A stretch of DNA of 20,347 nucleotides from a virus. Below, piece after piece: positions 5,149-14,158 of the stretch. Made by a program: the position numbers and the translations under genes. The stretch covers positions 1 through 20,347 of the IMG/VR virus record IMGVR_UViG_3300021961_000806. One strand, written 5' to 3'. Position 1 is the stretch's first letter, and every line of letters begins with the position of its first letter. The notes below the pieces were generated by a model. That model did no database searches, had not been told where the DNA came from, and worked only from the letters and a program-made list of their open reading frames with translations.

Positions 5149-5792
5149 CCTACCTACAACTCATCAACGACGTGCTGATCCGGTTGCGTGAAACGCAAGT
5201 TTCGACCAACAGCGAGACGACCTACTCGGCCCTGATTGGCAAGTTTGTCAACGACGCCAAGCGCCAAGTTGAGGACGCCTACGCATGGAACGTGCTCGGC
5301 CAAACCGTGACGATCACCACGACGCCCGGCACATACATCTACTCGATGACTGGCGCAGGCCAGAAGTTCCAAGTGCAGGACGCCATCAACACAACCTCCA
5401 ACGTCGGGCTGCGCAATATCAGCTTCGTGGAGATGAACCGCTTTCAGAACTTTGTGCCTGCCATCGACGGCATCCCCGAATACTACTCATTCGACGGCGT
5501 GGACGGCAACGGCGACACCAAGGTGGTACTGTATGCCCGCCCAGACGGCGTCTACAACATCCCATTCTCGCTGACCGTACCACAGGCTACCTTGGCAGCC
5601 GACAGCACGTTGGTGCTGGTGCCTGACGTGCTGGTGGTGCAAAACGCCTACGCCCGTGCTCTGGTCGAGCGCGGCGAGGATGGCGGCCTGAGCAGCTCCG
5701 AGGCGTACCAGCTTTACCGGGGCATGTTGGCTGACTACATCGCTTTGGAGGGCACACGCTTTCCCGAGCAACAAGAGTTTGTTGCCATATGA
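5145..5792 (+). CDS. Tail tubular protein A-like / head-tail adaptor
   Basis: This is a 215-residue protein. The opening YLQLINDVLIRLRETQVSTN and the following YSALIGKFVNDAKRQVEDAYAWNVL are typical of the T7 gp11-like tail tubular A / adaptor proteins of podoviruses. The end is helical (YARALVERGEDGGLSSSEAY, LADYIALEG), as in family members whose C-terminal helices pack against the portal ring. It would form the ring joining portal and tail hub. It lies directly before the tail tubular protein B-like gene, the conserved order, and overlaps both neighbours by ATGA. Confidence 0.82.
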   Translation: MTYLQLINDVLIRLRETQVSTNSETTYSALIGKFVNDAKRQVEDAYAWNVLGQTVTITTTPGTYIYSMTGAGQKFQVQDAINTTSNVGLRNISFVEMNRFQNFVPAIDGIPEYYSFDGVDGNGDTKVVLYARPDGVYNIPFSLTVPQATLAADSTLVLVPDVLVVQNAYARALVERGEDGGLSSSEAYQLYRGMLADYIALEGTRFPEQQEFVAI

Positions 5793-7348
5793 GCCAGCAA
5801 ATCCAGACTGCCAGCATTTCAGCGCCGGGATTCTTCGGTCTGAACACGCAAGACTCGCCTCTGGACTTGGCGTCAGGCTTTGCGCTGGTTGCCACCAACT
5901 GCGTGATCGACCAGTTTGGTCGAGTCGGCGCACGCAAGGGCTGGTCACGGGTGAACGCCTCCTCGGGCGACCTGGGTGCGAACAACGTGGGTGTGATTCA
6001 TGAGCTGGTGCAGTCTGATGGCACGCTGACAGTGTTGTTTGCGGGCAACAACAAACTGTTCAAGCTGGACGGCTCCAACGCTGTGGTCGAGCTGACCTAC
6101 GGGGGTGGGGGCAGCGCACCAACGATCACGGCCAGCAACTGGTCAGTTGCATCGCTCAATGGCATCACCTACTTCTTCCAAACGGGCCACGACCCGCTGA
6201 TCTACGACCCAGCCGTCAGCACAACGACCTTCCGCCGTGTGAGCGAGAAGTCGGGCTATGTCGGCACTGTGCCTTCGGGCGATATTGTCATCTCTGCGTT
6301 CGGTCGGCTGTGGGTGGCGAACACGGCTACGGTCAAGAACGTGGTGTATTTCTCTGACTTGCTGTCGGGCCATGTGTGGTCTACAGGCACGGCGGGCTCG
6401 CTGAACGTAGACCGTGTGTGGCCCAATGGCTCTGACGAGGTGCAGGGCTTGGCCGCGCACAACGGCTTCCTGATCATCTTTGGCAAGCGTCAGATTCTGG
6501 TCTACGCCAACGCCACAACTCCGGCCACTATGTCGCTGTCCGACACGGTAGGGGGGATAGGTTGCATCGCCCGTGACTCCATCCAGTCCACGGGCAAGGA
6601 CGTGCTGTTCTTGTCCAACTCGGGCGTGCGCAGCTTTGCTCGCACAATCATCGAGAAGTCAGCTCCGTTGGGCGACCTGTCCAAGAACGTGCGCAACGAT
6701 TTGATGGGCATTGTGGCGGGCGAGGTCTTGGCGAACATCAAGTCGGTCTATTCCGAGTCAGAGGCGTTCTATCTGCTGACGCTGCCCTCGGTCAAAGAGG
6801 TGTACTGCTTTGACACCCGCCAGCAGTTGCAAGACGGCGCGTTTCGTGTGACGGTTTGGGACTCGATTGAGCCAACAGCGCTGCTGTCAAAGCGCAACGG
6901 TGACCTGCTGATCGGCAAAAACGGCTATGTCGGCAAGTACGGCACCTACCAAGACTACACATCGTTGTACCGGATGCAGTACTACACGAACCACGCTGAC
7001 CTCGGCAACCAGAACGTCACCTCGCTGCTGAAAAGGCTCAAGGTGATTGTGATCGGTGGCACCAACCAGTTCGTGACGATCAAGTGGGGCTTTGACTTTC
7101 TTGCCAACTACCAGTCGGCTAACGTTTTAATTCCAACGCAAGGCGTTTCGGAGTACGGCGTTGCGGAGTATGGCGCCAACGGCTCGCCCGTGGCCGAATA
7201 CTCTGAGGGTGTGGCCCTGCAAACTTTGTCAACATCGGCAAGCGGCAGCGGTAAAATCGTGCAAACCGGCTACGAGTCCAACATCAACGGCTCGCCTCTG
7301 TCAATCCAACGGATTGAGATTCAATCTAAAGATGGGAAAATATCGTGA
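5789..7348 (+). CDS. Tail tubular protein B-like / tail hub protein
   Basis: This 519-residue protein follows the adaptor gene, the position of T7 gp12 or the P22 gp10-like hub. The N-terminal part (GFFGLNTQDSPLDLASGFAL and NCVIDQFGRVGARKGW) is a strong signature of this family in podoviruses. The rest is a series of beta strands with repeats of the sort seen in its propeller-like body (GRLWVANT, HNGFLIIFGKRQILVY, GDLLIGKNGYVGKYG). Near the end an imperfect EYG repeat occurs (GVSEYGVAEYGANG). It would form the tail tube below the adaptor and hold the fibres. It starts at the ATGA overlap at 5789 and ends in an overlap with a GTG start. Confidence 0.85.
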   Translation: MSQQIQTASISAPGFFGLNTQDSPLDLASGFALVATNCVIDQFGRVGARKGWSRVNASSGDLGANNVGVIHELVQSDGTLTVLFAGNNKLFKLDGSNAVVELTYGGGGSAPTITASNWSVASLNGITYFFQTGHDPLIYDPAVSTTTFRRVSEKSGYVGTVPSGDIVISAFGRLWVANTATVKNVVYFSDLLSGHVWSTGTAGSLNVDRVWPNGSDEVQGLAAHNGFLIIFGKRQILVYANATTPATMSLSDTVGGIGCIARDSIQSTGKDVLFLSNSGVRSFARTIIEKSAPLGDLSKNVRNDLMGIVAGEVLANIKSVYSESEAFYLLTLPSVKEVYCFDTRQQLQDGAFRVTVWDSIEPTALLSKRNGDLLIGKNGYVGKYGTYQDYTSLYRMQYYTNHADLGNQNVTSLLKRLKVIVIGGTNQFVTIKWGFDFLANYQSANVLIPTQGVSEYGVAEYGANGSPVAEYSEGVALQTLSTSASGSGKIVQTGYESNINGSPLSIQRIEIQSKDGKIS

Positions 7349-8058
7349 GCAACTACGTACAAAGTACCAACTTCGCCACCAAGGACGCTCTGGCTTCTGG
7401 TGACCCTCTGAAGATCGTCAAGGGCACGGAGATCAACACCGAGTTCAACAACATCGCTACAGCCGTGGCGACCAAAGCCGACTCGGCGTCGCCTACGTTT
7501 ACAGGTACGGTGACAATCCCAACATTGGCGCTGACCAATGATCTTGCTATTGCAGACGGTGGCACCGGCGCATCTACTGCCGCAGGAGCTGCCACTAATT
7601 TAGCGGCTGAGTTCGGAAAACTTTTGTTCCCTGTCGGCGCTATCTATACAGCGGTGGTTTCCACCAACCCCGGCACGCTGCTCGGCTTTGGTACTTGGAC
7701 GGCGTTTGGCGCGGGCCGCGTGATGGTCGGTTTTGACTCTGGCAACACGCTGTTTGACACCGCTGAAGAAACTGGCGGTAGTGCGAACGCTACTTTGCCG
7801 AGCCACACGCACACAGCCTCGACAGCGACTGCGGGCGATCACAATCACGTCATTGAAACTTACACGGCAACTGACCAATTTGTCACAAATACACGTGTTT
7901 CCGCAAGTGGAACAAGCGCGCCGTATGCAGGGCAATATACAACAAATACAGCAGGCGCACACGCACACTCCGTAACGGTTGATTCTGCGGGCTCCTCTGG
8001 GACCAACGCTAACTACCAGCCGTACATCACCGTGTATATGTGGAAACGGACAGCATGA
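7345..8058 (+). CDS. Short tail fibre with collar-type C-terminal domain
   Basis: This 237-residue protein starts at GTG 7345, overlapping the previous stop (GTGA). The middle has DSASPTFTGTVTIPTLAL and IADGGTGASTAAGAATN, repeats usual in trimeric tail fibres. The C-terminal half (FPVGAIYTAV, LLGFGTWTAFGAGRVMVG, ETGGSANATLPSHTHT, and the ending NYQPYITVYMWKRTA) is the phage tail collar / baseplate-like domain found at fibre tips, with a histidine-rich region (HTHTAS, DHNHV, AHAHS) that probably binds metal. It most likely contacts the host surface. No larger spike or depolymerase is seen in the window, so this may be the main receptor-binding protein. Confidence 0.83.
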   Translation: MSNYVQSTNFATKDALASGDPLKIVKGTEINTEFNNIATAVATKADSASPTFTGTVTIPTLALTNDLAIADGGTGASTAAGAATNLAAEFGKLLFPVGAIYTAVVSTNPGTLLGFGTWTAFGAGRVMVGFDSGNTLFDTAEETGGSANATLPSHTHTASTATAGDHNHVIETYTATDQFVTNTRVSASGTSAPYAGQYTTNTAGAHAHSVTVDSAGSSGTNANYQPYITVYMWKRTA

Positions 8059-8348
8059 TCACGCACCACTTCAGCGATGGGCTGTACGCCAAAGAGGCCG
8101 CATTCGCGGCGGGCACGGCCATCCTGAAGCACACGCATGACTTCAGCCACCTGTCGATCCTAGCCAAGGGCAAGGTGGCGGTGATGAAGGGCGAGGACAT
8201 TGAGGTGATCGAGGCCCCGGCCTGCATAGAGATCAAGGCTGGTCTGACGCACGGCGTCAAGGCCATCACGGACTGCGTTTGGTTTTGTATTCACGCCACT
8301 GACGAGAAAGACCCGTCTAAAGTGGATGACGTTTTGATTGGAGTTTGA
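8055..8348 (+). CDS. Cupin-fold protein
   Basis: This 97-residue protein starts at ATG 8055, which overlaps the fibre stop by ATGA; an ATG at 8040 in the same frame is less likely. It shows the cupin pattern: LKHTHDFSHLSILAKGKVAV (first motif, H26, H28 and H32) and IKAGLTHGVKAITDCVWFCIHA (second motif, H66), around a small beta barrel. These histidines are suited to binding one metal ion. Small cupins of this kind appear in phage tail regions with unknown task: a structural cap of the fibre, or a sugar- or metal-binding enzyme. No other catalytic domain is present. Confidence 0.8.
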   Translation: MITHHFSDGLYAKEAAFAAGTAILKHTHDFSHLSILAKGKVAVMKGEDIEVIEAPACIEIKAGLTHGVKAITDCVWFCIHATDEKDPSKVDDVLIGV

Positions 8349-12398: not shown

Positions 12399-12809
12399 AT
12401 GTTCCCCTTGACCGCGATACTGGGCATCGGCGAGAAGCTGATCGACAAGCTGGTGCCCGACCCAGAGGCCAAGGCCAAGGCGCAGCTCGACCTCGCCAAG
12501 ATGGCGCAGGACGGTGAGTTGGCGAAGATGGCTAACGAGACCGACCTGTACAAGACCGAGCAGAACAACGTCACGGATAGGTGGAAAGCTGATATGGGCA
12601 GCGACTCGTGGCTGTCCAAGAACATCCGGCCTATGGCGCTAATTGCCATTTTCGTGGCCTACTTTATGTTTACCGCCATGTCTGCGTTTGGCTACAACGC
12701 GCAGGAGTCCTACGTCCAGCTGTTGGGCCAATGGGGTCAGATCATCTTCTTGGCTTATTTCGGTGGTCGGACAGTTGAAAAGCTGGCGGACATGAAAGGT
12801 AAGAAGTGA
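12399..12809 (+). CDS. Holin of the GTA 3TM type
   Basis: This 136-residue protein has GGAGG directly upstream. The amphipathic N-terminus (LTAILGIGEKLIDKLVPDPEAKAK) and the conserved DRWKADMGSDSWLSKNIRP motif, followed by a hydrophobic helix (MALIAIFVAYFMFTAMSAF) and a second one (GQIIFLAYFGGRTVEK), match the holin family I know as GTA_holin_3TM. It sits beside the endolysin, as expected. It would time lysis by making holes in the inner membrane for the cytoplasmic endolysin. Its last codons and stop lie in a 24-bp sequence that is repeated after the HNH gene. Confidence 0.87.
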   Translation: MFPLTAILGIGEKLIDKLVPDPEAKAKAQLDLAKMAQDGELAKMANETDLYKTEQNNVTDRWKADMGSDSWLSKNIRPMALIAIFVAYFMFTAMSAFGYNAQESYVQLLGQWGQIIFLAYFGGRTVEKLADMKGKK

Positions 12810-12812
12810 AAG
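12789..12812 (+). repeat. 24-bp direct repeat, left copy
   Basis: This copy spans the last codons of the holin, its stop and the start of the HNH gene. It matches 13305-13328 at 23 of 24 bases; the single difference (G here, A there) lies in the start codon. The distance between the copies is 516 bases, exactly framing the HNH gene. Confidence 0.93.
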
Positions 12813-13306
12813 TTTGCACTGTCTGCAAGTGTGAGAAACCTTTCGCTATGTTTAGCCCGGATAAAAGGCTAAAAGATGGTTGCCAAAGCCGTTGCAAAGT
12901 ATGCTACGCGCAAATAATGATGGAGCGCCGTAAAGCAAACCCCCAAGCGCACAGGGCCGACGTAAAGCGCAGCACCCAAAAGCACTACGCCAAAAAGCTA
13001 TTGCGTAACAACACCTACCGCGCAAGCAACCCAGATAAGGTTTCCAAGTGGAAAGCTAAAGACAGGAAAGATAACAAAGCGCGAGTGTTGGCCGACAACG
13101 CAAAGCGCCGGGCGTCAATGCAAGGTGAAACACCAAAAGACGTAGTGCAGGTTTACGCCTTGCGAGATTTTTACGTTGCGATGTCTTTGGGCGAGCTGTT
13201 TCATGTTGATCACATAATCCCTATCTCAAAAGGTGGTAAGCACATTGCTGAAAATTTGCGTGTAATCCCCGCAATCGACAATTTGCGTAAAGGCGCAAAC
13301 CTCTGA
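12806..13306 (+). CDS. HNH endonuclease, free-standing, inserted in the lysis module
   Basis: This 166-residue protein starts at GTG 12806, overlapping the holin stop (GTGA). It has an N-terminal zinc-finger pattern (C4-x2-C7 and C30-x2-C33, around KPFAMF) and a central basic coiled region (about residues 40-110). The C-terminal HNH core reads FHVDHIIPISKGGKHIAENL, followed by IPAIDNLRKG, with D135, H136, N150 and N159 in the expected places. It would cut DNA. The gene looks richer in A and T than its neighbours. It interrupts the holin-endolysin pair and is flanked by 24-bp repeats, so it is best read as a mobile homing-type endonuclease. It could also be a host-DNA nuclease. Confidence 0.88.
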   Translation: MKVCTVCKCEKPFAMFSPDKRLKDGCQSRCKVCYAQIMMERRKANPQAHRADVKRSTQKHYAKKLLRNNTYRASNPDKVSKWKAKDRKDNKARVLADNAKRRASMQGETPKDVVQVYALRDFYVAMSLGELFHVDHIIPISKGGKHIAENLRVIPAIDNLRKGANL

Positions 13307-13328
13307 CATGAAAGGTAAGAAATGAAAG
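13305..13328 (+). repeat. 24-bp direct repeat, right copy
   Basis: This copy of the holin-end sequence lies just after the HNH coding sequence. It spells out the holin tail again (Met-Lys-Gly-Lys-Lys, stop) and carries the endolysin ATG at 13322. AAAGGTAAG in it still provides the ribosome-binding site of the endolysin, so the insertion kept endolysin translation intact. Confidence 0.93.
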
Positions 13329-13834
13329 ACAACTTCGACGCAGCGCTCAAGGCCATCCTCCACCACGAAGGCGGCTACGTTAACCACCCTGCGGACCCCG
13401 GCGGCATGACCAACCTGGGCGTCACCAAGCGCGTCTGGGAGGAGTGGGTCGGCCACGAAGTTGACGAAAAGACGATGCGCGGGCTCACGCCCGAGATCGT
13501 TGGGCCCATGTACAAAACCAAGTACTGGGACAAGATCAAGGGCGACGACCTGCCCACCGGCGTAGACTACTGCGTGTTCGACGCTGCTGTGAACTCTGGC
13601 CCCGGTCGTGCGGCCAAGTGGCTGCAAGCCTGCGTCGGCGTCGAGCCGGACGGCGGCATCGGCCCCAAGACGCTGGCCGCAGTCGCTGCGTTTGACCCCA
13701 AGGAGCTGGTCGAGGACTACAACAAGCGTCGCCTGTCCTTCCTCATGGACCTCAAGACGTGGGACACGTTCGGCAAGGGCTGGGGTCGCCGTGTGGCTGA
13801 GGTGCAGACCAGCGCCAGCTCTATGCTCGCATAA
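13322..13834 (+). CDS. Endolysin, glycoside hydrolase family 108 (N-acetylmuramidase)
   Basis: This is a 170-residue protein. The N-terminal domain has LHHEGGYVNHPADPGGMTNLG, the signature of GH108 muramidases with E16 in the EGGY motif as catalytic acid. It continues YKTKYWDKIKGDDLP and VFDAAVNSGPGRAAKWLQ, also family-typical. The C-terminal part (VEPDGGIGPKTLAAV) is the small peptidoglycan-binding helical domain (PG_binding_3). There is no signal peptide, so release depends on the holin. It cuts the glycan strand of peptidoglycan. The length is normal for the family. Its 3' end overlaps a minus-strand gene by 14 bases. Confidence 0.92.
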   Translation: MKDNFDAALKAILHHEGGYVNHPADPGGMTNLGVTKRVWEEWVGHEVDEKTMRGLTPEIVGPMYKTKYWDKIKGDDLPTGVDYCVFDAAVNSGPGRAAKWLQACVGVEPDGGIGPKTLAAVAAFDPKELVEDYNKRRLSFLMDLKTWDTFGKGWGRRVAEVQTSASSMLA

Positions 13835-13976
13835 CCAACCAGATCAGCATCGGCCACACCGTCAGGCCGAGCACTGCCATCAGCACCCAGTACGCCAGCC
13901 TCTTGAGCTGCTCACGCCAGACAGACTCTGGCAGCGGCTCTGCGGCTGGCGTCTTTCTGCCAATGCGGGCCGTCAT
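13821..13976 (-). CDS. 51-residue single-pass membrane protein
   Basis: The minus-strand ATG at 13976 overlaps the stop of the upstream minus gene (ATGA). The frame encodes MTARIGRKTPAAEPLP, a basic amphipathic stretch (VWREQLKRLAYW) and one hydrophobic helix (about residues 31-49, LMAVLGLTVWPMLIWLV), ending MRA. It is the last gene of the leftward operon, and its 3' end overlaps the endolysin's by 14 bases. A lysis-related role would fit its neighbour, but it is transcribed with the early-type genes, so this is open. It has no lipobox and is not a clear spanin. Confidence 0.6.
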   Translation of the reverse strand: MTARIGRKTPAAEPLPESVWREQLKRLAYWVLMAVLGLTVWPMLIWLVMRA

Positions 13977-14158
13977 TGCTCGGCCCTCAAAAAGAGCGTC
14001 AGTCGGTTGATCTTGCCTTGGTGATACTCAACCATCTTGGCGGCGTATTCTTGCGCATCTTGCATCTCTAGCAGGCTGCGCTTAGCGGCCTCCAGTTCGC
14101 GCAAAGCGCTTGAGGCGATGCTTGGTGCTTGGAACATGGACTTGATTAGATTGAACAT
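13973..14158 (-). CDS. Small helical hypothetical protein
   Basis: This 61-residue protein starts MFNLIKSMFQAPSIASSALR and continues with heptad-like helices (ELEAAKRSLLEMQDAQEYAA and HQGKINRLTLFL). It is probably soluble and coiled-coil, perhaps dimeric; the short N-terminal hydrophobic part could touch a membrane. It overlaps the upstream gene by 13 bases and the downstream one by 4. I do not recognise a family. Confidence 0.65.
   Translation of the reverse strand: MFNLIKSMFQAPSIASSALRELEAAKRSLLEMQDAQEYAAKMVEYHQGKINRLTLFLRAEQ

Follow-up and report, generated by a model that had tools for sequence, protein, structure and literature searches.

The window, by which we mean the whole 20,347-nt stretch of viral DNA analysed here, carries on its plus strand a three-transmembrane holin gene (12399–12809; GTA_holin_3TM/PHROG 3427; PF11351 E = 4.5e-9, PHROG 3427 E = 6.7e-25), a predicted free-standing HNH endonuclease gene encoding 166 aa from a GTG start (12806–13306; PF01844, PHROG 1035) and an endolysin gene of the glycoside hydrolase 108 (GH108) type with a PG_binding_3 domain (13322–13834; PF05838 E = 8e-29). 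The holin and endolysin ORFs are each complete without splicing. As the initial annotation had described, a 24-nt repeat frames the HNH gene: the plus-strand copies at 12789–12812 and 13305–13328 are identical at 23 of 24 positions, the sole difference being AAGTG/AAATG, and both ends of the HNH ORF coincide with them. No other pair of 24-mers with one mismatch or fewer was found in the 20.3-kb window.

Copy 1 contains the holin tail (DMKGKK and stop), an AAAGG at 12795–12799 and the HNH GTG at 12806, which is overlapped by the holin stop TGA (12807–12809). The HNH stop TGA occupies 13304–13306, and its final two bases are the first two of copy 2, which carries a stranded holin tail, an AAAGG (13311–13315) and, 6 nt beyond this motif, the endolysin ATG at 13322. 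The earlier description of each copy as the end of the holin, its stop and the start codon of the next gene is accurate for copy 1 but not for copy 2, in which the stranded tail, read from the sequence, forms a mini-ORF of five codons (MKGKK and stop; 13308–13325, plus strand). This mini-ORF begins 1 nt past the HNH stop, its own stop overlaps the endolysin ATG, and it may pass ribosomes on to the endolysin. Without copy 2, with the ATG right after the HNH stop, the closest AAAGG would lie about 14 nt off. The proposal that the endolysin kept its ribosome-binding site is supported by the well-placed AAAGG of copy 2, whose present role would be to supply this motif and to restore a stop/start overlap.

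Just after the endolysin, two overlapping small ORFs of 51 and 61 aa lie on the minus strand (13821–14158); they have no PHROG match and are possibly spanin-like. Elsewhere in the window, the region at 5789–7348 has 'amidase' (phrog_5107) as its best PHROG match, its other matches being head-closure/virion proteins, and a lysis label for it is doubtful. A small cupin-like ORF of 98 aa lies among the virion genes (8052–8348; Pfam Cupin_2 E = 1e-4, below cutoff).

The HNH gene

Membership in the HNH endonucleases is predicted from the HNH/beta-beta-alpha-Me motif with its conserved His and Asn. PF01844 matches the protein with 26.6 bits against a cutoff of 21.4 (E = 6.7e-6), and the HNH domain is placed at residues 130–163 (13193–13294, plus strand; including HVDHIIP...NLRVIPAIDN) by Pfam and by invariant columns. 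An N-terminal Cys4 motif (C4, C7, C30, C33) and the C-terminal HNH motif are invariant among ten family members, as are D135-H136, N150 and N159. The profile of PHROG 1035 (endonuclease VII) matches along the whole protein (E = 1e-22), a full-length likeness to an endonuclease VII-like HNH family whose label comes from sequence alone and does not imply branched-DNA resolvase activity. In an AlphaFold model of the protein the HNH domain is predicted with low confidence (mean pLDDT 69). Among solved structures, no convincing match to the protein was found.

GC3 is 0.54 in the HNH gene, below that of the holin (0.80) and the endolysin (0.85), and the gene therefore looks compositionally foreign. 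Searches of IMG/VR, phage records and species genomes yielded no near-identical HNH gene. The top identity to any HNH protein found was 68.5% (L288), and identity was at most 38% among the matches listed from phage records.

Empty junctions in relatives

Dozens of IMG/VR relatives lack an HNH gene, and in them the holin stop and the endolysin start share an ATGA, in agreement with the proposal that the HNH gene inserted into, and opened, an older ATGA overlap of holin and endolysin. The best empty match (L003) contains the single repeat copy anticipated in the initial annotation for relatives without the gene, and this copy is identical to copy 2 at 24 of 24 positions and to copy 1 at 23 of 24. 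Over 200–300 nt, L003 is about 93–95% identical to the window on the left and 91% on the right, and it has no similarity to the window inside the HNH gene. Because L003 matches the window on both flanks, the insert consists of the HNH core and a single copy of the repeat. The window endolysin shares 95% amino acid identity with that of another phage with an empty junction (L001). The empty junctions are single-copy; neither empty relatives with both copies nor an HNH gene common to all relatives, the two patterns named as contrary to an insertion, was observed. As for the suggestion that the HNH gene took over translational coupling to the holin, its start does now overlap the holin stop, and the coupling itself is suggested by the overlaps.

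At the ATGA of the holin stop, endolysins of unrelated types (GH108, M15_3 peptidase, GH19-like) and small uncharacterised genes also replace one another (L084–L160); at these holin 3' ends the holin tail is constant and the following gene varies.

The HNH gene is present in some phages and absent from others at a single fixed site flanked by conserved genes, as expected of free-standing homing endonucleases. On a holin tree of 109 rows the presence of an HNH gene needs at least seven changes, three of them forced by well-supported (starred) branches, and the starred 41-row clade of the window's holin includes 37 empty phages. Because the sampling was non-random, with empty phages drawn near the window's holin and filled ones obtained through HNH scans, the tree shows patchiness and not rates. 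The closest HNH gene (L288) also has a GTG start and is identical to that of the window at 21 of the first 23 nt; the window's HNH gene is not firmly placed with it in the HNH tree. Copy 2 and most empty junctions have ATG, not GTG, a distribution that fits the G of copy 1 having come with the HNH gene and copy 2 being native. The mosaic identities may point to the super-Mendelian inheritance and co-conversion that homing would produce in mixed infections.

HNH genes of three families at the same junction

About a dozen further alleles of the window's HNH family (family A), 57–68% identical, were found at the same junction by a protein scan and a DNA pattern for the C-terminal motif IPAIDNLRKGA. 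Those examined begin at the holin stop and finish at the ATG of the following gene, be it GH108, an M15 peptidase or another kind of gene. From the end of the HNH stop to the next ATG the distance is -1 to +11 nt in every other tabulated family-A allele; HNH and the next gene overlap by 4 nt in L163 and L300, and L131/L168 have a stop-A-ATG geometry at the HNH 3' end. The window alone has a gap (15 nt) between HNH stop and endolysin ATG, filled by copy 2, and a repeat of the 24-bp type is absent from the dozen or so other family-A alleles. In family A the AAAGG of the endolysin is encoded by the HNH gene's own last codons, for a conserved Arg-Lys-Gly-Ala (AAAGGNGC), and predicted anti-SD pairing is similar to that at empty junctions (medians of -3.9 and -4.3 kcal/mol, respectively). 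A family-A gene in L294 (read on the reverse complement, with the HNH open from 3891) has an N-terminal part that is frameshifted relative to L293/L295; this is apparently a decaying allele at the same junction.

Two other HNH families occupy the same junction: family B (HNH_3), in L116, L178, L179, L180 and L181, the last of which precedes a GH108 endolysin, and family C (HNH), in L040, L205–L216 and L223. All are HNH proteins, their best Pfam/PHROG matches differ from those of family A, and a remote common origin of the three families is possible. No holin-tail repeat was found in families B and C. Since the tabulated family-C alleles overlap the endolysin by 11–20 nt in another frame, their 3' end encodes a new start for the endolysin (in several alleles CATGCGCGAAAACTTTGA). 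In L205–L208, the first 14 nt of the family-C HNH gene exactly match endolysin starts found in empty phages. The gene of L212 and L213 opens with MKSNFDLAL(S/T)QLLKHEGGYVN, copying the start of the following endolysin (MKTNFDLALSQLLKHEGGYSN) over 21 codons (48/63 and 46/63 nt identical, respectively). The family-C HNH of these two (L212:2923–3489, L213:718–1284) is fused in frame behind the duplicated first 21 endolysin codons, which serve as its N-terminus. This arrangement provides independent evidence that invasion of the junction can duplicate the endolysin start region, in a register unlike that of the window.

Occurrence of the repeat

When 2.9 million viral contigs were scanned by pattern for two repeat copies 470–500 nt apart, none was found; the window's own record may have been left out of that set. 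Among 26 other HNH alleles there was no long similarity between the 5' and 3' boundaries, the best 20-nt boundary match being within or barely above shuffles. Family-C L211, L212 and L223 were slightly above (14–15/20 against shuffle maxima of 13–14), because both of their ends bear ATGAAA-type endolysin starts. The holin-tail repeat as a general design was rejected, there being no second case in the scan and none in the 26 alleles. The idea that such a repeat is a general route of harmless entry is not supported by the other family-A alleles or by families B and C, which lack it. Judging from the alleles compared, the 24-bp repeat would be one idiosyncratic solution, and capture of the holin-coupled start together with re-supply of the endolysin start would be the general feature.

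Origin of the window's junction

Comparison establishes the insertion, the empty sites, the foreign composition and the reuse of the junction by three HNH families. The explanation that we favour, and consider probable, is a recent homing-type entry of a family-A HNH gene into an empty ATGA overlap with a 3' join that shifted into the holin tail; nuclease activity, homing, the mechanism of joining and translational coupling at the HNH junction are its putative elements. The HNH start codon would have landed at the former start of the endolysin, hence its overlap with the holin stop. During homing-type repair the left join would have formed at the holin/HNH start and the right join in the holin tail of the recipient, upstream of the endolysin ATG that is used in the relatives. 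This aberrant 3' join may have occurred via a short match such as GACATGAAAG, a likely cause because ATGAAAG occurs twice, 14 nt apart, in the empty junction. The outcome would be a second holin tail whose AAAGG lies 6 nt ahead of the endolysin ATG and whose mini-ORF restores the ATGA overlap. Illegitimate repair joined by microhomology is documented in T4 homing (PMC2988022). A donor with the predicted HNH-TGAC-ATGAAAG-endolysin junction was not found, and it also weighs against this explanation that no HNH protein found exceeds 68.5% identity to that of the window, that the placement with L288 in the HNH tree is not firm and that the repeat arrangement is known from one case, the window.

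A plain target-site duplication, in which the empty junction was nicked at two points, or cut with a long stagger, some 24 nt apart and fill-in then copied the site on both sides of the HNH gene, would agree with the exact fit of the insert and one repeat copy between the halves of the L003 junction, and an identity of 23/24 resembles a fresh duplication. We consider it unlikely, however, since none of the other family-A alleles or those of families B and C carries such a duplication, which argues that it is not the enzyme's habit, and since HNH homing is established to work by repair copying and not by cut-and-paste (PMC2988022). A transposon with a target-site duplication was also rejected as a candidate: the HNH protein is the only one encoded, and the other insertions have no such repeat.

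Alternatively, an ancestral precise HNH insert could have been modified later, when out-of-register recombination over ATGAAAG copied a holin tail, either the phage's own or that of an empty phage, beside the endolysin. In keeping with such a history, every other allele is inserted precisely, its stop touching the next ATG, and the stop-C-ATG before copy 2 resembles the stop-A-ATG of L131/L168. Yet it requires an extra event, a repeat-free sister of the window HNH gene was not found, and both flanks match an empty phage, leaving this sequence of events quite improbable. Still more doubtful is an assembly or strain-mixture artefact that fused a phage carrying the HNH gene with an empty one at the repeat. 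The window, of 20,347 bases, is an entire virus record of the IMG/VR type, probably metagenomic, and HNH-bearing and empty phages may share one sample; but the novel 3' join has no long word in common with known HNH ends, a 24-bp repeat with one difference is below the usual assembly word length, and both ORFs are intact, so that we regard such a fusion as very unlikely indeed.

Possible start capture in the lysis cassette

The moment of lysis is set by endolysin and holin dosage, and the lysis cassette should therefore be a poor place for insertion. Even so, different HNH genes have inserted there time and again, and in nearly all cases stops and starts are in contact on either side. We tentatively suggest that lysis junctions might be a hot spot for mobile HNH genes of a start-capture type, which would take the holin-coupled start of the endolysin and carry a replacement at their 3' end. 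Under the same tentative proposal several HNH families would do so independently, and the replacement would consist of a new ATG and an AAAGG within the final HNH codons or, in the window, of the duplicated holin tail. If this is true, these genes can invade an essential gene under tight timing and cause no loss, and they are a 5'-end counterpart of the replacement-end elements of fungal mitochondria. The recurrent entry with stop/start contact provides a testable rule for how operons of overlapping genes are invaded by selfish genes. Natural empty/filled pairs, for example L003 and the window, suit tests of translational coupling and homing, and the window's repeat would permit exact loss of the HNH gene by recombination, back to the empty junction.

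Comparison with known systems

Free-standing HNH homing genes are already known, as are their GUG starts and their coupling to a stop upstream (PMC2988022). The mob/seg genes of T4-like phages, which represent intronless homing, resemble the gene described here in that stand-alone HNH genes lie between conserved genes and are patchily present; the start of T4 mobE overlaps the upstream stop (UAAUGA) as the window HNH gene overlaps the holin stop, T4 mobA has the same GUG start, and the microhomology repair documented there would be a further likeness (PMC2988022). In contrast to mob/seg, the 3' side of the insert here would give the invaded downstream gene its start signals back, through the holin-tail repeat in the window and through overlap in the relatives; here, too, the site is a lysis junction and HNH cleavage is putative.

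An HNH gene between holin and endolysin is reported for Geobacillus phage PK5.1 (PMC10459684), the only mention found in the literature on the exact arrangement. It is the same kind of gene in the same kind of place within a lysis cassette; PK5.1 differs in its amidase-type endolysin and its host, and in the available part of that account the repeat, overlap and start capture go unmentioned.

Mobile endonuclease ORFs of fungal mitochondria carry a replacement C-terminus, as in Allomyces atp6 and Glomus atp6, atp9, cox2 and nad3 (PMC3630166). The likeness lies in an endonuclease gene inserted in a host gene and a duplicated gene end, which here too would keep the invaded gene whole. In the fungal ORFs it is the 3' end of the gene that is duplicated, with a LAGLIDADG enzyme in Glomus atp6, whereas here it is the 5' initiation region, in phages and with HNH enzymes; as read from the DNA alone, the duplicated end is the initiation region in the window and the first 21 endolysin codons in L212/L213. 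The 5'-end version in phage lysis cassettes, involving three HNH families and with the holin-tail repeat as one of its forms, appears from the literature consulted to be new.
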